A stretch of DNA of 61,524 nucleotides from Halanaerobiales bacterium (GTDB lineage Bacteria; Bacillota; Halanaerobiia; Halanaerobiales; M55B127): positions 1-61,524 of the forward strand of contig JAGXLU010000008.1 in the NCBI GenBank assembly GCA_018334565.1, written 5' to 3'. Positions within the stretch are counted from its first letter, which is position 1, and each line of letters opens with the position of its first letter. Below the pieces are notes generated by a model, which saw only the letters and a list, made by a program, of their open reading frames with translations, made no database searches and was not told the origin of the DNA. Made by a program: the position numbers and the translations under genes. Shown in pieces: positions 6,348 to 58,502 of the stretch.

Positions 6348-6824
6348 ATGATAGCTCTAATTATTAACATTTCTGCTTTTTCTTTACTATTTTTTACATT
6401 TATTCAAGATAAACAAAAAGCACAAAGATCTTTAAAACAGGCTTTAGTTAAATTTGTAAATTTGCTACCAATGATGATATTAATAATAATTATGATTGGC
6501 TTGATACTGGGCTTTATACCTCCAGAAGTCATAAGAAATTATTTGGGTTCTGACAGTAATATAATAGAGATAATAGTTGCATCTTTATTTGGGGCTATTA
6601 CTATGATTCCCAGTTTGGTCGCACTTCCTCTAGCTGGTTCTTTAATCGAAGCTGGAGCATCATATACTCCTGTCGCTGCTTTTATAACAACTTTGACAAT
6701 GGTTGGGTTTGTTACTTTACCAATTGAATTAAAAGAATTGGGTAAAAAAATGACCATATTAAGAAATATATTTGCATTTTTATTTGCAATAATAATCTCA
6801 TTATTAATAGGGGTGTTGTTATAA
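6348..6824 (+). CDS. Half-size permease, first subunit (predicted-permease/ArsP-like family)
   Basis: A 158-residue membrane protein with about four or five hydrophobic segments. It has a central RNYLGSDSN segment followed by a Gly/Pro-rich loop (GAITMIPSLVALPLAG). A similar loop occurs in the next protein, so the two look like the two halves of a duplicated permease. The layout recalls the predicted permease family (PF03773-like), where both halves are normally fused; that family link is from memory. It starts directly after the TetR stop and its own stop overlaps the next ATG (TAATG), implying translational coupling. A paralogous pair lies at 37985-38988. The substrate is not evident. Confidence 0.7.
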   Translation: MIALIINISAFSLLFFTFIQDKQKAQRSLKQALVKFVNLLPMMILIIIMIGLILGFIPPEVIRNYLGSDSNIIEIIVASLFGAITMIPSLVALPLAGSLIEAGASYTPVAAFITTLTMVGFVTLPIELKELGKKMTILRNIFAFLFAIIISLLIGVLL

Positions 6825-7387
6825 TGGAAAAAAACAAAGTTAATCAATTGGATTTCAAGGATAAAATTAACAAGGGACTGCTGAATACAATTAAATATAT
6901 AATGATATTAACTATAATTATATTAAGTGTATGGTATTTCTTTCCCAATAAGACGAATTCAGCTTTAAATATTTCAAGCAAATATGGATTAGAGATGATC
7001 ACGATATTTCCGGCCGTACTGATTTTGATGGGGCTTGCAGATGTGTGGATTCCCAAGTCTCTTATTAATAAATATTTGGGTGATGAATCTGGTTTAAGAG
7101 GTATTATTATAGCAATGATTTTAGGCACCCTGCCCACAGGTCCCTTATATATTGCTTTCCCTATTGCTGCAGAATTATTAAGAAAAAAAGCAAAAATTAG
7201 TAATGTAATGATCTTTTTAGGAGTTTGGGCTTCCTTAAAAATACCACAAATCAGTGTTGAAATAAAATTTCTTGGTATAAAATTTGCAACTTTACGTTTT
7301 ATATTAACTTTAGCTGCTTTAGTTATTATTGGTAATTTAATAGAATTTATAATAACAAAAAAAGAGAAGAAGGAAGTTCTAAATTAA
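6824..7387 (+). CDS. Half-size permease, second subunit (predicted-permease/ArsP-like family)
   Basis: A 187-residue membrane protein. It has a charged N-terminus, a TM near residues 20-40, a VWIPKSLINKYLGDESG segment and a Gly/Pro loop (GTLPTGPLYIAFPIAA) that mirrors the loop in the preceding subunit. The C-terminus is Lys/Glu-rich. It overlaps the upstream stop by one base and is probably made in a fixed ratio with it to form a heterodimeric transporter. It is paralogous to the protein at 37985-38506. A GGGGTG-type ribosome site lies within the end of the upstream gene. The transported substrate is unknown. Confidence 0.7.
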   Translation: MEKNKVNQLDFKDKINKGLLNTIKYIMILTIIILSVWYFFPNKTNSALNISSKYGLEMITIFPAVLILMGLADVWIPKSLINKYLGDESGLRGIIIAMILGTLPTGPLYIAFPIAAELLRKKAKISNVMIFLGVWASLKIPQISVEIKFLGIKFATLRFILTLAALVIIGNLIEFIITKKEKKEVLN

Positions 7388-37984: not shown

Positions 37985-38506
37985 TTAAAGTTCATCATCT
38001 TTTAGTTGGTAATCAGGACCGATTAGTTTATCAAGCCAAATTGAAGTTATAATAATAAGGGGTAAGGAAGTAAATAATCTGATCATAGTGAACTTAATAC
38101 CCAGAAATGATGCTTCAAAGAGAGTCATAGGGATTCTGACCAGAGCAGCAGCACCTATGTATGTAAAAATAATACTATATCTGGCTCCCTTATGAAAAAG
38201 AGAGTAGGCAACGGGGAAAGCTACATATGTTCCTCCTACTGTTGTGCTAGCTAGAATTATGGCCCAGATAAATCCCTTCATACCTGAATTTTGTCCGAAA
38301 TGTTTTTCAACTGTTTCTCTTTTAACCCAAACTTCAAATAGTCCGATTAAAATAAAAGCAGCTGGAAGTATTTTGACCATACTTACCGCAAATTGTATAA
38401 AGTTATCCCGAATTGCAAGGCCGGGATTATAACTTATTAAAGTAGATATGAATATAAAAAATGTGAATAAAGAAAAGATTAAGATGTTTTGTATTTTTAA
38501 TTTCAT
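37985..38506 (-). CDS. Half-size permease, second subunit (paralogue of 6824-7387)
   Basis: A 173-residue membrane protein with about five hydrophobic segments. It has a FEVWVKRETVEKHFGQNSG segment and a Gly loop (ASTTVGGTYVAFPVAYSL) matching the corresponding parts of the 6824-7387 protein (LADVWIPKSLINKYLGDESG and GTLPTGPLYIAFPIAAEL). Its ATG overlaps the stop of the partner gene (TAATG). No regulator is adjacent, unlike the first copy. The substrate is unknown; the family link to PF03773-type predicted permeases is from memory. Confidence 0.7.
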   Translation of the reverse strand: MKLKIQNILIFSLFTFFIFISTLISYNPGLAIRDNFIQFAVSMVKILPAAFILIGLFEVWVKRETVEKHFGQNSGMKGFIWAIILASTTVGGTYVAFPVAYSLFHKGARYSIIFTYIGAAALVRIPMTLFEASFLGIKFTMIRLFTSLPLIIITSIWLDKLIGPDYQLKDDEL

Positions 38507-38988
38507 TAAAACACTTCCCCGAAAGATAAACCAATAACGAGAGTCACTATTATAGCAATTGCAAAGCTAATTAGATTTCTTAAAATTGTTAATCTGTGAC
38601 CTAAATATTTTTTTTCAACTGGATATGTTAAAATACCAATCATCATTAATGTGGTTGAAAAGCCGGCAATATTCATATAACTTACACCTTTATCCACGAG
38701 AATTCCAGCAAGAGGAAATGCTATAAAACCTGGCATCATAGTGATTGAACCAAATGAAAGACTGGCAAATAGTCCATATAAATCAGAATTTTGGCCTAAG
38801 TATTTAACGATCATTTGATCAGGCACAAAATAAAGCATAAATGAAACTAATATGAGCATTTTAAGAAAAGCTGGTAGTATATTTAGTAATTTTTTTAAAG
38901 CGATTTTTATAGCCTGTTTGGTTTTGCTAAAGTCAAAAACTATCGAAATGATTAAGGATAAGGTGGTTATTATGTAAATTAAATACAT
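38506..38988 (-). CDS. Half-size permease, first subunit (paralogue of 6348-6824)
   Basis: A 160-residue membrane protein similar throughout to the 6348-6824 protein: VKYLGQNSDLYGLFASLSFGSITMMPGFIAFPLAG (compare YLGSDSN and GAITMIPSLVALPLAG), and a shared end pattern LTILRNLISF. It is the first gene of a two-gene operon and is translationally coupled to the second subunit. AAAGGAGA precedes the ATG. It probably forms a heterodimer with its neighbour. Confidence 0.7.
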   Translation of the reverse strand: MYLIYIITTLSLIISIVFDFSKTKQAIKIALKKLLNILPAFLKMLILVSFMLYFVPDQMIVKYLGQNSDLYGLFASLSFGSITMMPGFIAFPLAGILVDKGVSYMNIAGFSTTLMMIGILTYPVEKKYLGHRLTILRNLISFAIAIIVTLVIGLSFGEVF

Positions 38989-52287: not shown

Positions 52288-52405
52288 TTTAAAGTAATTA
52301 GGGAAAGGTATTTTTATAAAGGATATTTTTATATTTCTAATCACAAATGTAAAAAAATAACTGATTAATAATATTAAATCAGATATTCATATTTGAATTA
52401 AAAAG

Positions 52406-52436
52406 GCATGTAGATCAAAATTTAAGATCTACATGC
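52406..52436. terminator. Bidirectional terminator between topoisomerase and SleB-type genes
   Basis: An 11-pair perfect stem (GCATGTAGATC/GATCTACATGC) with TTTCTT on the right and an A-rich run on the left. It lies between convergent genes and can serve both. Confidence 0.85.
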
Positions 52437-52457: not shown

Positions 52458-53075
52458 TTATTTAGCAAAAACATGGTTGCCTATTATAACAGTAACTTCA
52501 TATTTATTGAAGGCATCAGGGTCTTGAGATTTGTCTGGGTTGAAGAAAAACAGAGCCCCCTGGGAAGGATCTTCCCCATCTACTGCTCTCTGAGCAGCTC
52601 GATATGCTGTTTGATTGGGCATATTATTAATTTGTCCATTGTCTATACATTTAAATTGATTATATTGATATAAGACTTCTTTTATAGTATTGGGAAAATT
52701 ATTACTTTTCATTCTATTAACTATGACTGCTCCGACTGCAATCTGTCCTTGAAGGGATTCGCCTCTTGCTTCAGCATAGATAGCCCGCGCAAGAAGGTCA
52801 ATATTAATAGAATCCACCCTGATTTCAATCTTCTCTTGGTTATTTAACTCTGTTTGATCAATTTTTATTTCATCGGAGTAATCATTATCAACTGATTCAA
52901 ACAAGAGGTATAAAATAAAGGCAGCAGCCAATCCGGTTACAATATCCCTTGTCTCAATTTCTCTTGCCTGAGCCGTGGGAGATAAAACCGGATTACTGAA
53001 TAAAACAGAATTAATCATTACTATTAATATTATTATTAATATAATTGAAGTGATCCTTATTACTCTTGTCTTCAT
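52458..53075 (-). CDS. Cell wall hydrolase, SleB/CwlJ family
   Basis: A 205-residue exported peptidoglycan hydrolase. It has an N-terminal hydrophobic signal/anchor (about 5-25). The C-terminal Hydrolase_2 domain has LLARAIYAEARGESLQGQIAVGAVIVNRM (catalytic Glu in YAEARGE), YNQFKCI and GALFFFNP. The family includes spore-cortex lytic enzymes but also vegetative wall enzymes. Here it is the last gene of the exbB-exbD-tonB-SLH operon, so an envelope-remodelling role is more likely than germination. The ATG follows the SLH gene stop by one base. Confidence 0.9.
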   Translation of the reverse strand: MKTRVIRITSIILIIILIVMINSVLFSNPVLSPTAQAREIETRDIVTGLAAAFILYLLFESVDNDYSDEIKIDQTELNNQEKIEIRVDSINIDLLARAIYAEARGESLQGQIAVGAVIVNRMKSNNFPNTIKEVLYQYNQFKCIDNGQINNMPNQTAYRAAQRAVDGEDPSQGALFFFNPDKSQDPDAFNKYEVTVIIGNHVFAK

Positions 53076-53076
53076 A

Positions 53077-53922
53077 TTAGCTTCCCAGCAGGAATATTAA
53101 TAGTACTGCAGCACCTACATATAAGGCAGCATTACTTGCTTCAATTGGACTTTCTCCGCTTTCTTCTGCAGCTTGTTCAGCTTCCTCTTCACTCGTTAAT
53201 TCTGCCAGCTGGTCATTATTGTTATTTACTCTATTTTCTAATTTTTGCAGATTACTTTCTAAGGTACTGACTTTATATTCTAATTCTGAATTTCTATCTT
53301 TTAATTTTTGAATATCTGTAGATTGTAATTCTGTTTTAAGATCTGTTATCATCTTATCTTTTTTTGCAAGTTCTTGATTGGTAGACTCTAAATCTTCCTC
53401 TAAAGTTATAACTCTATTTGTTAATGTATCTACTTTTGTATTAAGTTCTTTCATGACAATAATTTCATCAATAATTTCATTAACCTCTATTTGTACTTCG
53501 TTCATTCTTTGATTAATTTTGCCAATTGCTTCATCCTGAACTACATTTTTCTTTTGTGCCTTGTCAAGGTTAGTAGAAAATATATTTTGTTTATTTGCTA
53601 TATCAACCAATTCGTCCCTAAATTCAAGAGATAGCTCTCGTAAGGTGTCTACATCATCATCACTCATTTCAGTATCACCAGCTGCAGTATCGCGCAGCAT
53701 TCTTGCAATAATTTCAGCTAGTTCATACCTATTGACTTTATTAGCTCCTTTAAAAGTGTCATCTTCATAGAGTGAAAAATAACCTTTTTCTACCAGTAGT
53801 TTAACACTATCGTAAGCCCAATGACTTTCTGGAACATCTTTAATTTCAACTCCTAAAGCTGTATAAGAAAACAGCATTACAAAGATCAAAGTTAAAATTA
53901 ATAAATTACTAATTTTCTTCAT
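53077..53922 (-). CDS. SLH-domain/coiled-coil/C-terminal TM envelope protein
   Basis: 281 residues in order: signal peptide (about 1-24, ALGVE end), one S-layer homology domain (about 25-80: DVPESHWAYDSVKLLVEKGYF region, NRYELAEIIARML), a long heptad-rich coiled coil (about 95-240), an acidic Glu-rich linker and a C-terminal hydrophobic anchor (AALYVGAAVLLIFLLGS). SLH domains bind pyruvylated wall polymers. A rod with a far-end membrane anchor resembles Thermotoga Omp-alpha, which spans from peptidoglycan to the outer membrane. This supports a diderm envelope. The start follows AGGAGG. Confidence 0.9.
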   Translation of the reverse strand: MKKISNLLILTLIFVMLFSYTALGVEIKDVPESHWAYDSVKLLVEKGYFSLYEDDTFKGANKVNRYELAEIIARMLRDTAAGDTEMSDDDVDTLRELSLEFRDELVDIANKQNIFSTNLDKAQKKNVVQDEAIGKINQRMNEVQIEVNEIIDEIIVMKELNTKVDTLTNRVITLEEDLESTNQELAKKDKMITDLKTELQSTDIQKLKDRNSELEYKVSTLESNLQKLENRVNNNNDQLAELTSEEEAEQAAEESGESPIEASNAALYVGAAVLLIFLLGS

Positions 53923-53940
53923 CTTGATTATATTCCTCCT

Positions 53941-55905
53941 TTAATTTTCAAAGTTAATTTCAACTTCATTATTTTGTTCATCAAATGCTTTAATACTTTC
54001 AATTTTTAAGTTAAGCTCCCCTTCTTGTTTTTGACTAAATTGAATAGTGCCGACAATACCAGAATTTGCATAGTCAGGTAAAAATTCATCAAAAGTTACT
54101 CTTCCCTTTGAAATTGCAGGATCTTCCCAGAGGATTATTTTATCATTTTGTACAAACATATCTCCCGGGAATATATAGTTAATATTATAGGCGGAGGAGT
54201 TATAGCTTAAGGCCATTGATATATTATTAATTGAGAGAAGATTAGCACCAACTATATTATAGCTTTGAAAACTATCTTCATACTTCACCTTATCTAGATA
54301 TATAAATGGTTTTAATTCTGGAATATCAAGATTGTCTCTAGTACTTTTTCTATAATTATTCAAACCGGAAATTTCAATGGAATAAGGCATATTTCCCGTA
54401 ACATTCAGCACTTTAACAGACCAATTTATTTCTAATTCTTCTCCGCTTTCAATATAACCTAAATATTTTCGGCTAGCTTCTTTATCAGCAAAGTTTAAAC
54501 CTGGTGGCAGAGCTAATTCTGTTTTGGCATCAAATAAAGTAGAGCCTCCCACATTGGATAATTTAACATTTAAATCAAATGGATTTGGAGTAATTTTACC
54601 TTTTTCTTTTGTTAAAGTTTTATTTAAGTTAATTTCAGCTTGTATCATGGGTGGACCCACAAACTGGATACTTCTTTGTACCTGGTTTGAATCAGTATTG
54701 TCTGCTGATACTTTAACAGAGTAAGTCATATTGCCAGGAATTTCTTCTGCAGATTTTCTAACCTGCCAGATAACCTGGGTAGTTTCTCTAGATTGTAAAT
54801 TTCCAATTTCTTTTATTTCGTCTCCTCCATCAAAACTATTTGGTAGATTAATCTCTGCCATTACATTTTTAGCTGTTATATCAGATGTGTTTTCAATATA
54901 TGCGACTACCGGGAAGTATTGATTATTTTGATCATAAGTAAATTCAGAGGGCGATGTAATCCCTAATGCTAACAAGCCAGGTACTACCTCTATACCGCCC
55001 AAACCGTAATTGGTAACATATGTTACTTCCTCATCAGGTCCTATAGTTATGGGTTCCCAGACCATAGCAACAGCACTATCGATTTCGTATTCTCCCTTTC
55101 GAACAAATTCTTCACCTGGATTGAAGTCAAAATTCCATTGACCATCAGCCAGACTACCCCAATCTGCAAAATATACCTCATCTGGTTCTGTTACTCCAGG
55201 GCCTTTAAAGGTACCCTGGGAAGTTACGGTTGGATTGCTGATACTGTCAAATGCTTGCCAGAAAATAGGTAACTCTTCTTTTAGAAATAAACTATCAGTT
55301 GTAATTGCTTGATCGGCTAATCTAAATGGGGCCCCATCATTTTTGCCTAGCATCGTATCAAGCATTATTCTCAAACCGACTTCTTTTATTTGTTCACTAT
55401 TATTTGTTAAGCGATATTTAATCTGGGCAGTATCATTTAAACCGGTTGTATTACTTTTTACAATAGATAAAATTTGTTCAACTTTAATATTTTCTATGAG
55501 TGTACTAGTATATATTTGATTATTTTTAATTACAGGTCCTTCTGTAACCTCCCCATAATTAGCATCTTGACCGGCTCTTCTCTTGGTAGAACCACCAAAA
55601 ACGTAATTAGTATTATTTATCTGCAAAGTAGTATAAGAGGTCCATGGTTTAGGTCTGCCATAAACCAGAGGCTTACTCTTATCACTGGTTTTCATAGGCG
55701 CTCCTCCTGTTGTTTCAATAGCGAAGCGGCCCTTAGCATTATTATCTTGATTGGTGAAAATTACTATATATTTATTACCCAATCTTAGATTATTATTTTC
55801 ATCAACCTCTGTAAAAAGATCAGATTGTGCTGAAATTACAGCGTTAATAAACAAAAATGAGCTAAGTAAAATTATAATGAATATTAAAACCTGTCTTTTT
55901 TTCAA
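53941..55905 (-). CDS. Large exported beta-sandwich protein, cohesin-like C-terminal domain
   Basis: 654 residues with a signal peptide (about 1-26, VISAQS). The N-terminal region (about 30-310) is a beta-rich module I cannot name, containing MVWEPITIGPDEEVTYVTNYGLGG in pieces (WEPITIGPDEE, TNYGLGG). Next come two CARDB-like repeats (about 320-420 and 430-530) with EIGNLQSRETTQVIWQV and YIESGEELEINWSV. The C-terminal 110 residues resemble cohesin-like carbohydrate-surface modules (SMALSYNSSAYN, GTIQFSQK). The start is TTG after GGAGG. Located between tonB and the SLH gene, it is presumably a periplasmic or surface protein. No enzyme motif is seen. Confidence 0.8.
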   Translation of the reverse strand: MKKRQVLIFIIILLSSFLFINAVISAQSDLFTEVDENNNLRLGNKYIVIFTNQDNNAKGRFAIETTGGAPMKTSDKSKPLVYGRPKPWTSYTTLQINNTNYVFGGSTKRRAGQDANYGEVTEGPVIKNNQIYTSTLIENIKVEQILSIVKSNTTGLNDTAQIKYRLTNNSEQIKEVGLRIMLDTMLGKNDGAPFRLADQAITTDSLFLKEELPIFWQAFDSISNPTVTSQGTFKGPGVTEPDEVYFADWGSLADGQWNFDFNPGEEFVRKGEYEIDSAVAMVWEPITIGPDEEVTYVTNYGLGGIEVVPGLLALGITSPSEFTYDQNNQYFPVVAYIENTSDITAKNVMAEINLPNSFDGGDEIKEIGNLQSRETTQVIWQVRKSAEEIPGNMTYSVKVSADNTDSNQVQRSIQFVGPPMIQAEINLNKTLTKEKGKITPNPFDLNVKLSNVGGSTLFDAKTELALPPGLNFADKEASRKYLGYIESGEELEINWSVKVLNVTGNMPYSIEISGLNNYRKSTRDNLDIPELKPFIYLDKVKYEDSFQSYNIVGANLLSINNISMALSYNSSAYNINYIFPGDMFVQNDKIILWEDPAISKGRVTFDEFLPDYANSGIVGTIQFSQKQEGELNLKIESIKAFDEQNNEVEINFEN

Positions 55906-55927
55906 TTATGAAACCTCCCATGCTGAG

Positions 55928-56755
55928 TTAGAGAAAGTTAACTTTACCTATTTCAATATTAACATTCGGGTTTCCATTTTCATCTATATTAAAAACCACA
56001 GTTACTTCAAGTTGATATCTTTGTTTGTAGCTTTTAAATTCCCATCCTTTTTCTAGAGTTAGTTTAGCGTTTCTATCCATACTATCTATATTACTTGAAT
56101 TAGTAATAACTATATTTTCTAGTTTGCCATCCTGATTAATCTTAAGATTTAAGCTTACTTTTCCACTTTGGGCCTCACTAACCAGGTACTTTGGATAAAC
56201 TGGTTTGGGTGATAATCCAATAAGCTCACCTGCAGTAGGTGGTGGTGGAGGTGCTGGTTCAGGTTCAGGTTCAGGCTCAGGTTCAGGCTCAGGTTTTTCA
56301 TTAATGGTTTCTTCTTTTTTAACTTCAATTTCGGTGTCACTTTCTTCACTTGTTATTATATTTTGATCCTGTTGAGTTTCTGTTTGCTGAACTTCTTCTG
56401 TAGATTCGTTTTCCTGAGCAATTTCTATATTTTCATCACTAGTTTCTTCTTTCGGTTCAGGCTCAGGTTCAGGTTCAGGCTCAGGTTCCGGTTCGGGTTC
56501 GGGTTCAGGCTCAGGTTCCGGTTCTTTTATGGGCTCCGGTTCGACTTTAGGCTCCGGTTCTTCTTTTGGTTCTTGAATTTGTTTGTTTTGTGTTTGAAAT
56601 TCAACATATTGAACATATCCAAAATTATCACCAGCAGCTTCTTCATTACTAAAGCCCTGTAAATAGCCAAGAGGGAAAAAATAGAATAATATCAAATGTA
56701 GTATTAATGATAATGTTATATATAAGAATAATCTACTTTTGTCATTATTATTCAT
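55928..56755 (-). CDS. tonB: Energy transducer TonB
   Basis: A 275-residue protein with TonB layout: an N-terminal TM (about 9-30), a periplasm-spanning rigid Glu-Pro region with two PEPEPEP blocks, and a C-terminal TonB domain (about 180-270; KPVYPKYLVSEAQSGKVSLNL containing the YP motif). It couples the proton motive force harvested by ExbB/ExbD to outer-membrane receptors. A TonB here implies an outer membrane. No TonB-dependent receptor is encoded in the window. GGTGGTG precedes the ATG. Confidence 0.94.
   Translation of the reverse strand: MNNNDKSRLFLYITLSLILHLILFYFFPLGYLQGFSNEEAAGDNFGYVQYVEFQTQNKQIQEPKEEPEPKVEPEPIKEPEPEPEPEPEPEPEPEPEPEPEPKEETSDENIEIAQENESTEEVQQTETQQDQNIITSEESDTEIEVKKEETINEKPEPEPEPEPEPEPAPPPPPTAGELIGLSPKPVYPKYLVSEAQSGKVSLNLKINQDGKLENIVITNSSNIDSMDRNAKLTLEKGWEFKSYKQRYQLEVTVVFNIDENGNPNVNIEIGKVNFL
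56236..56294 (-). repeat. Glu-Pro repeat, second block of TonB
   Basis: Repeats of a six-base unit (read GGTTCA or GGCTCA on the plus strand) encode alternating Pro-Glu before a polyproline run. This is a low-complexity, slippage-prone stretch. Confidence 0.9.
56453..56526 (-). repeat. Glu-Pro repeat, main block of TonB
   Basis: About 12 six-base units encoding Pro-Glu pairs, giving a stiff rod. Unit copies vary synonymously (GGTTCA, GGCTCA, GGTTCC, GGTTCG), so the repeat is old and stable rather than freshly expanded. Confidence 0.9.
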
Positions 56756-56766
56756 GTTAACACCAC

Positions 56767-57171
56767 CTAACCATCCTTCTTTTCTGCTGCTAAGGCAAGA
56801 TTGAATATCCCTACTTGTCTTACACTGTCCATAACTGTAACGATTGAACTGTATTCTGTCTGATTATCTGCATTAATGACTACAACTAAGTTATTATTGG
56901 ACTGATATTGTTCTTTAGCCATTTGACTAATCTTGGCTATGGGTAAATTATCTCCCTGATAAAAATATCTTCCGTCTTTATCTATGTTAATAACAAAATT
57001 CTCCTGTTTTTGTTCGGTTACTGTAACTGCTTTGGGCAGTTTCATTTCCATTCCATATGGATTTGTACGAAAAGAGGTAAAAAGCATGAAAAATACCAAC
57101 AAGAAAAAGATTACATCGATCATAGGTATAATATTAATGGATGTCTTCTTTTTATGTGTAGGTTTGAACAT
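56767..57171 (-). CDS. exbD: ExbD/TolR-family proton channel subunit
   Basis: A 134-residue inner-membrane protein with one N-terminal TM. The motif INIIPMIDVIFFLLVFFM carries the essential proton-carrying Asp (IDVIF), and the C-terminal domain is periplasmic. The ATG at 57171 lies eight bases after GGAG (GGAGTGAAGATA then ATG). It overlaps the end of exbB by 20 bases, so they are coupled. It supplies energy to TonB. Confidence 0.94.
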   Translation of the reverse strand: MFKPTHKKKTSINIIPMIDVIFFLLVFFMLFTSFRTNPYGMEMKLPKAVTVTEQKQENFVINIDKDGRYFYQGDNLPIAKISQMAKEQYQSNNNLVVVINADNQTEYSSIVTVMDSVRQVGIFNLALAAEKKDG

Positions 57172-57796
57172 TATCTTCACTCCTGTCTGTAATAACATCC
57201 ATTATATCAATCATGCTCAGATTCATCTCATGAGATTTGTCCTCAACTTTATTGACATAATAGGAATAAAAGATTGCAGTTGGTATGGCAATTATTAAGC
57301 CGAGAGCTGTGCTTATTAAGGCTGCAGCAATCCCAGAACTTATTTGAGCAGCATTTGCCGCCCCTGCAGCAGTTCCAAGTATATTAAAACTACTTATAAT
57401 ACCGATTACAGTTCCCAACAGACCTAATAAAGGAGAAATCATAGCGACCACATCTAATACAGGCAAATGTTTTTCCATTTTTTGAATTTCATCTTCTCCA
57501 ACCACCTGTAAGACTTCCCTAATTCTTTCAGGGTTTTCTTCATAATGTGAGAGGGCAGTAGATAAGAGCTTGGCACTGGCTCCTCTTTCTCCCTTCAGTT
57601 CGTTTAATGCACCTAATATATCATCATTTTCAACTTTTAATTCAATTCTTTTTAATAGTCTTAAACTATTATCTTTTCTTCTGAAAAAGAATACTGCTTT
57701 TTCAATAATAACAGCTAGACTGAAAATAGAACAGATTATGAGTGGGATAGCCATTGGGCCCCCAAGTGAAATAAAATTATAAATTTGATTATACAT
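57152..57796 (-). CDS. exbB: ExbB/TolQ/MotA-family proton channel subunit
   Basis: A 214-residue inner-membrane protein with three TMs. The conserved GLLGTVIGIISSFNILG and SSGIAAALISTALGLIIAIPT (each shown in part: LLGLLGTVIG, SGIAAALIST) are the ExbB/TolQ signature. It begins the six-gene operon and forms the motor complex with ExbD. AGGAG precedes the ATG. Confidence 0.95.
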   Translation of the reverse strand: MYNQIYNFISLGGPMAIPLIICSIFSLAVIIEKAVFFFRRKDNSLRLLKRIELKVENDDILGALNELKGERGASAKLLSTALSHYEENPERIREVLQVVGEDEIQKMEKHLPVLDVVAMISPLLGLLGTVIGIISSFNILGTAAGAANAAQISSGIAAALISTALGLIIAIPTAIFYSYYVNKVEDKSHEMNLSMIDIMDVITDRSEDNVQTYT

Positions 57797-58472
57797 TAAT
57801 TGACACTCCTCGTTCTATAATTATTTGAGTTCATTAATATTATCATTAATCCTAATTAAAATAATTCTATGTTGAAACAATAATTCCTTCTTAAATGGCT
57901 TACCATTTAAAACGTTTACACATATATTAATTGTCAGATAAGACCTGTAATTATGACGAAAGACAGCTATAAATCGTTGTTTTCATAATCTAAAATAAAA
58001 ATATTATAACCACAGATTAAACAGGCAACTTTTTTGTGAAAATTTTAATAGTATTTAATATATTTGAAATGTATTATAACATAATGCGTACTCTATTTTT
58101 TAAAAAACATTTATAGAATATAGATATACAAGAAAATGAATATATGACTTAAAGACTTTTTTGTTTAGTGAAAATTAATTGAATAATATTTAACAGCAAA
58201 TATCTATTTATGCTATATTAAAAATATTCTAAATACTAACCCTATAGGGTTTTAACTGTCAATATTTAAAAGTATTTTCCCTCCTTCATAAAATTTTATA
58301 AAAATATCTAAATATTTTTTTATTTTTTGAGCTGTTATTTTACAATTCTTTTACTTATCTTATCATTTATATAGGTTTTTTTCTATATATTTTTTAAAAA
58401 TTTCATAAAATCATAATCAAATATTTTTTAATATTATAATAAACAGCCATTAATGAAATAATAATATAAAAG
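57797..58472. other. Long non-coding region upstream of the exbB operon
   Basis: 676 AT-rich bases between the exbB start and the spoVS terminator, both minus-strand. I found no reading frame. The region should hold the exbB promoter. An inverted-type AT sequence TCATTAATATTATCATTAAT (57831-57850) loosely resembles a Fur box, but the match is weak. A 14-bp palindrome AACCCTATAGGGTT lies at 58238-58251. The length is unusual for this tightly packed chromosome. Confidence 0.55.
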
Positions 58473-58502
58473 AACCTGTTTGTCTGATCAGACAAACAGG
58501 TT
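58473..58502 (-). terminator. Terminator of spoVS
   Basis: A perfect 30-base inverted repeat (13-pair arms starting AACCTGTTTGTCT around GATC), followed by CTTTTATATT on the minus strand. It lies 12 bases past the spoVS stop. Confidence 0.8.

Follow-up and report, generated by a model that had tools for sequence, protein, structure and literature searches.

An exbB-exbD-tonB operon conserved in diderm Firmicutes as a candidate counterpart of the Tol-Pal system

In the Tol-Pal system, encoded in Escherichia coli in the order tolQ-tolR-tolA-tolB-pal, a motor drives the mobilisation and capture of Pal, a lipoprotein that binds the wall (PMC7066135). A survey published in 2025 reported Tol-Pal from Gracilicutes alone; among the diderm Firmicutes it detected Ton systems in no group but Negativicutes, and it anticipated that more systems stabilising the outer membrane would be discovered (PMC12204202). 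Atypical diderms are reported to lack pal and tolB (PMC8871954), and PorE of Bacteroidetes was proposed as an alternative outer-membrane tether where tol-pal loci are missing (PMC12204202). Omp-alpha (OmpA1) of Thermotoga maritima consists of an SLH domain, a long coiled coil and about 20 hydrophobic C-terminal residues (PMC3387000). In 2009, exbB, exbD and tonB were found together without a receptor in H. orenii and their function was left open (PMC2626281). Here, an operon containing these three genes was analyzed in a Halanaerobiales bacterium (assembly GCA_018334565.1, 97 % complete), on a stretch of 61,524 nucleotides of contig JAGXLU010000008.1 (hereafter the window). Six genes run head to tail on the minus strand at 52458-57796 in the order exbB-exbD-tonB-BSP-SLH rod-hydrolase, where BSP denotes a predicted exported protein of 654 amino acids:

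57152-57796, minus strand: exbB/tolQ-type proton channel subunit, 214 amino acids, in the TolQ position (PF01618, MotA_ExbB, 2e-32)
56767-57198, minus strand: exbD/tolR-type subunit, 143 amino acids (PF02472, 3.5e-31)
55928-56755, minus strand: TonB/TolA-type force transducer, 275 amino acids (PF03544, 6.3e-12; TIGR01352, 36.2 bits; both above cut-off)
53941-55905, minus strand: BSP, predicted exported protein, 654 amino acids, in the TolB position (AlphaFold2 model and profile matches of relatives)
53077-53922, minus strand: SLH-coiled-coil rod, 281 amino acids, in the Pal position (SLH 1.2e-08, plus coiled coil)
52458-53075, minus strand: Hydrolase_2 protein (SleB/CwlJ-type catalytic domain), 205 amino acids, with an N-terminal hydrophobic segment (PF07486, 1.4e-32)

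A preliminary description, made from the sequence of the window, had placed six genes on the minus strand at these positions with gaps of 1-22 bases or overlaps. All of the open reading frames were present and the measured spacing agreed. The genes exbB and exbD overlap by 17-47 bp, depending on the choice of the exbD start (the true start may be internal, MFKPTHKKK at about 57168), and the gaps are 11 bp (exbD-tonB), 22 bp (tonB-BSP), 18 bp (BSP-SLH rod) and 1 bp (SLH rod-hydrolase).

When 40 loci, nearly all of them from Halanaerobiia families, were compared, the order exbB-exbD-tonB-BSP-SLH rod was the same and the hydrolase was usually the next gene. Among 84,980 species genomes scanned, 219 relatives were found, the best 80 of which were all from Bacillota or from unclassified bacterium records, including Limnochordia-named metagenome-assembled genomes and Peptococcaceae bacterium 1109. 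The five-gene order was kept again at 49 loci of the best 80 and at 20 loci from a phylum-wide sample, with quite different flanks and a GC content of 0.37-0.69. Overall, order, strand and tight spacing were kept at 109 loci from Halanaerobiia, Limnochordia-type and other diderm Bacillota (median gaps of -20, 15, 14 and 13 bases), counted with some genomes represented through different collections and with gene order judged where the contig was long enough. The genes were thus found together in relatives rather than scattered, as expected of the single conserved unit that had been proposed. BSP was present as a single copy in 58 of 61 relatives. At a few loci the protein in the TonB position is interrupted or escapes the TonB profile. 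At L063:8408-9558, tonB is apparently split over two frames (frameshift, decay or assembly error).

The hydrolase, which the preliminary description had included in the unit, is a neighbour confined to Halanaerobiia and missing from the other loci. It was rejected as part of the core because it is absent outside Halanaerobiia and because ndk sits between the SLH gene and the hydrolase in several families. Since the five-gene order persists while the flanks change and the hydrolase occurs only in Halanaerobiia, the core consists of five genes, exbB through the SLH rod, and the hydrolase is a lineage-specific addition of Halanaerobiia.

The preliminary description had suggested an outer-membrane module of a diderm Firmicute, and the distribution of BSP follows that of Omp85 almost perfectly. 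In an even sample of 199 Bacillota genomes (at least 90 % complete), full-length BSP (E-value below 1e-190) was found in 44 genomes from 23 families, all of which encode Omp85/BamA, and 150 genomes have neither protein. Omp85 was present in 49 genomes, and the five without BSP come from two families (f38 and f66). The association is strong (Fisher 6e-39, shared ancestry uncorrected). A first sample of 119 genomes, which overlaps with the larger one and is not independent of it, contained Omp85 in 27 of 27 BSP genomes and two genomes with Omp85 only. The BamA neighbourhood of f38 contains tamB, a sigma factor, bamA and skp-like genes, and by this gene content f38 looks like Negativicutes.

The motor and transducer genes are homologous to exbB, exbD and tonB of the Ton system. 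The transducer has an N-terminal transmembrane helix with the SxxxH motif (SLILH), a Pro-Glu linker and a TonB C-terminal domain above cut-off (residues 183-256, about 56209-55988). SxxxH, which was found in the N-terminus of 91 of 100 homologues, belongs to the motor-binding SHLS motif (PMC12204202). The best NCBIfam models were tolQ (110 bits, followed by exbB with 73 bits) for ExbB and tolR (79 bits) for ExbD, all under cut-off. However, a TolQ-like label based on these scores was rejected because tolQ is also the top-scoring model for the receptor-linked ExbB proteins of these genomes. Placement of the motor nearer to E. coli TolQ or ExbB was not settled by the tree, as both E. coli proteins pair on long branches. 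In the joined ExbB and ExbD tree, the 45 operon copies form one clade (support 96/85) apart from nine receptor-linked copies.

No TonB receptor plug domain was found in the window genome, so that the earlier remark on the lack of a receptor applies to the whole genome as well as to the operon. The domain was also not found in 36 of the 61 genomes searched, among them the single-contig genomes G009 (H. orenii), G039 and G044, or in 10 of 12 Limnochordia-type genomes. Near-complete receptor-less Halanaerobiia carry exactly one ExbD, that of the operon, which is also the sole ExbD of the window genome; most receptor-bearing genomes carry further ExbD. At receptor loci, the receptor gene is accompanied by a separate set of tonB, exbB and exbD, and the four genes often stand in the order receptor-tonB-exbB-exbD. 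In contrast to the 2025 survey (PMC12204202), classical receptor loci with tonB-exbB-exbD are present in Halanaerobiia (L196-L204). In one of these loci the receptor-linked exbB is split (L204:4506-5125; frameshift, decay or assembly error). On the receptor criterion the operon was rejected as a member of the Ton system, as the window genome and most relatives have no receptor. It also differs in that the motor belongs to a separate clade and that the two further conserved genes are missing from Ton loci.

A Ton-type import function was also considered, in which the motor would serve a non-classical outer-membrane partner (e.g. a porin), BSP would capture a periplasmic sugar or glycan and the rod would only align the machine on the wall. 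It would agree with the TonB-type C-terminal domain and with the mutarotase-like supersandwich of BSP (see below), which resembles carbohydrate-active folds, and the authors of the H. orenii genome paper proposed that the genes have another function or that the receptors have diverged beyond recognition (PMC2626281). However, the core is retained in genomes that have no receptor and in 23 families, following the outer membrane and not a nutrient niche. In addition, true receptor loci bring a TonB-ExbB-ExbD set of another clade and mostly in another order, and the block contains no outer-membrane channel gene. Import was thus regarded as unlikely.

Compared with Tol-Pal, the operon has the same order of roles (motor pair, membrane-anchored long-armed transducer, soluble exported protein and wall-binding tether), a similarly tight gene spacing and a tie to the outer membrane. 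A TolQ/TolR-type pair lies adjacent to a transducer, though under the curated TolQ/TolR equivalog cut-offs. The difference is in the last two proteins, which are unrelated to TolB and Pal. TolB consists of TolB_N and a six-bladed propeller, whereas the fourth protein here is built of a supersandwich, Ig domains and a cohesin domain; Pal is an outer-membrane lipoprotein with an OmpA-type domain, whereas the fifth protein is a coiled-coil rod that carries an SLH repeat and a C-terminal helix. TolB_N was found in none of the 199 genomes (positive controls: E. coli, Caulobacter and Bacteroides). The OmpA-domain proteins of the window genome are three related proteins of 203-331 amino acids with a C-terminal OmpA domain and a shared N-terminal region (G000:C8:4538, C43:17952 and C59:3524; L205-L207), two of which start with a signal-like hydrophobic stretch, and no Pal-like protein was found among these matches. 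In H. orenii, the same domain search gave only a MotB. For the window genome, the search for receptors and pal that the preliminary description had proposed returned neither, nor a TolB. We rejected the operon as a member of Tol-Pal because it has no TolB and no Pal. The analogy drawn earlier gains strength from the match to the E. coli gene order.

When a single BSP sequence was searched against Pfam, NCBIfam, PHROGs and PDB, nothing was found above cut-off, and its domains were resolved only through an alignment and a structure model (AlphaFold2; mean pLDDT, the predicted local distance difference test, 89.6). The earlier label of an exported beta-sandwich protein proved too simple, as model and profiles give a signal peptide, a GalM-like supersandwich (residues 29-306, about 55821-54988), two NEW3/CARDB Ig domains (residues about 310-530) and a cohesin domain (residues 532-654, about 54312-53944). 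In structure comparisons of the model, the supersandwich matched GalM (Z 17.1; 213 aligned residues, 2.7 A, 10 % identity) and the cohesin fold was recovered with Z 14.4; the profile match to a PDB cohesin was 2e-13. Among BSP relatives, NEW3 was detected in 22 of 23 and the Pfam cohesin in 17 of 23. The Foldseek ranking of the whole model was not used, as multi-Ig proteins (integrins, complement) dominate it at a TM of about 0.2.

About 54 of the 68 invariant BSP residues fall within the supersandwich. GalM catalysis depends on histidines and a glutamate. No invariant or near-invariant histidine was found in the alignment, and BSP is therefore unlikely to be a mutarotase; the GalM-like fold says nothing about function on its own. 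Partial BSP-like domains occur in nine genomes without Omp85, within other, mostly larger proteins. Frames of about 1,250-2,250 amino acids with a BSP-like supersandwich and Ig region, in Omp85-negative genomes (G345:C1:395157, G322:C1:360322, G348:C74:2178 and G198:C29:103654), are possible surface-protein relatives.

Dockerin domains are the classical cohesin partners. Only 4 of 61 relatives encode them, and the window genome does not. Since they are absent from nearly all relatives, a cellulosome role of the BSP cohesin was rejected. The two BSP domains could also point to surface assembly, where the motor would power the export of a glycan or glycoprotein, or its attachment at the outer membrane, and BSP would be the carrier, with a sugar-binding supersandwich and a cohesin hook. 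In Flavobacterium, secretion and gliding are also driven by proton motors of this superfamily (PMC8986121). Such a function is improbable, as dockerins are so rare, no glycosyltransferase or exporter is conserved next to the core, and the window genome has only two SLH proteins, so that no SLH-type S-layer is evident.

The second of these SLH proteins is an 814-amino-acid frame on the same contig as bamA. The rod itself has the layout of Omp-alpha, with a signal peptide, one SLH repeat (53716-53844), a coiled coil and a C-terminal hydrophobic helix (about 53133-53080). The helix was found in 96 of 105 homologues, most copies have no lipobox, and the length varies from about 220 to 907 amino acids with a very variable coiled coil. 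In Thermotoga, the Omp-alpha locus TM0477 adjoins the OmpB porin locus TM0476, whereas the rod is locked to the motor operon; T. maritima was not among the control genomes with ExbD. Residues 26-110 of the rod match the NCBIfam SLH-porin model por_somb (36.8 bits, under cut-off), and the SLH segment thus runs on into a por_somb-matching region as in the OmpM/SLH-porin tethers, but these end in a beta-barrel and the rod in a hydrophobic helix. PorE, a CpoB-TolB-Pal-type fusion lipoprotein, has folds unrelated to those of the operon. Upstream of exbB, the loci L149, L174, L177 and L181 have another SLH gene, which is shorter and in three of them encodes about 190-245 amino acids.

By analogy with Tol-Pal, we suggest with moderate confidence, as the reading best supported by these results, that the five-gene core is a trans-envelope force-transduction module of diderm Firmicutes, driven by the proton-motive force, and a functional counterpart of Tol-Pal. 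The operon probably replaces the Tol-Pal of other double-membraned bacteria for holding and constricting the outer membrane. Proton flow through ExbB/ExbD would move TonB, whose long Pro-Glu arm would span the periplasm and whose C-terminal domain would engage BSP. BSP, presumably a soluble periplasmic protein in the TolB position, would act on the SLH rod, which would grip peptidoglycan through its SLH repeat and have its C-terminal helix embedded in a membrane, in all likelihood the outer one, following the example of Omp-alpha. Loading and unloading of the SLH tether by the motor would keep the outer membrane in step with the wall, above all when cells divide, a step proposed by analogy with the mobilisation and capture of Pal (PMC7066135). 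In Halanaerobiia, a wall hydrolase would have been added to this operon.

Several observations speak against a Tol-Pal-like tethering role. The C-terminal domain of the transducer fits TonB_C and not a TolA-specific model, and BSP lacks a propeller as well as any conserved, disordered N-terminal extension comparable to the one by which TolB binds TolA. The N-terminal domain of BSP is also found inside large proteins of Omp85-negative genomes, and five Omp85-positive genomes lack BSP, so that not every diderm Firmicute has the module. As for the rod, helical anchors in the outer membrane are unusual, its C-terminal helix could lie in the inner membrane, and the longest rods, if fully extended, would outreach an ordinary periplasm.

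The six-gene block of the window is framed by two strong intrinsic terminators, which fold about 7-8 standard deviations better than shuffled sequences (z-scores give folding relative to such shuffles):

58473-58502, minus strand: intrinsic terminator 3' of spoVS, before exbB (13-bp stem and T tail; z = -6.9)
about 52400-52436, minus strand: intrinsic terminator 3' of the hydrolase gene (11-bp stem, 9-nt loop and T run; z = -7.9)

Between the spoVS terminator and exbB lies a leader of about 670 bases (57797-58472) without an obvious open reading frame, in which no Rfam family was found; promoter-like sites are present, though they are common in AT-rich DNA of this kind. The upstream neighbours vary among the Halanaerobiia loci (spmA/spmB, a PHP-domain protein, a PrsA-like foldase or a two-component system, identified by reading the sequences). 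In sister-order families (L032, L036, L046 and L050), a gene read as a PrsA/SurA-like peptidyl-prolyl isomerase stands directly before exbB, as if a periplasmic foldase had joined the operon; the assignment at L050 was made by position and length only. Downstream, in the taxonomic order to which the window belongs (Halanaerobiales), the hydrolase is followed by a convergent gyrA.

The hydrolase carries the Hydrolase_2 domain, but it scored 136 bits against the SleB equivalog TIGR02869 (cut-off 236.5), and the earlier SleB-type label holds for the domain and not for the equivalog. With this gene directly downstream in Halanaerobiia and with spoVS and often spmA/spmB upstream, the motor could regulate peptidoglycan cleavage by the SleB-type hydrolase at growth sites or in sporulation. 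This kind of wall remodelling is highly unlikely, as outside Halanaerobiia the five-gene core persists with neither the hydrolase nor spoVS beside it, a terminator lies between spoVS and the operon, and the distribution follows Omp85. A sporulation role drawn from the spoVS neighbour was likewise rejected, as the flanks change while the core persists and the terminator separates spoVS.

Elsewhere in the window, open reading frames resembling transposase fragments were read near the contig start (221-1829). Two similar pairs of small proteins with several transmembrane segments (6348-7387, 158 and 187 amino acids; 37985-38988, 160 and 173 amino acids) resemble split nucleoside-gate permeases, as read from their sequences.

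No description of the five-gene module, of its two partner genes or of its spread over the diderm Firmicutes was found in the open-access papers searched. If the core is indeed a force-transduction module, a wider reading, which we put forward tentatively, is that it may be a second, independently built energised machine for outer-membrane tethering and constriction, in which the SLH rod takes the part of Pal and a supersandwich-cohesin protein that of TolB, on a Ton-derived motor. This machine would be ancestral to diderm Firmicutes except (probably) Negativicutes and would have been lost with the outer membrane in monoderm lineages. To the question of how diderm Firmicutes hold and constrict their outer membrane, the operon contributes five named candidate genes. 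As a near-universal single-copy operon tied to Omp85, it also bears on how lineages retained or lost the outer membrane on the way from diderm to monoderm, and on whether energised tethering has more than one origin.

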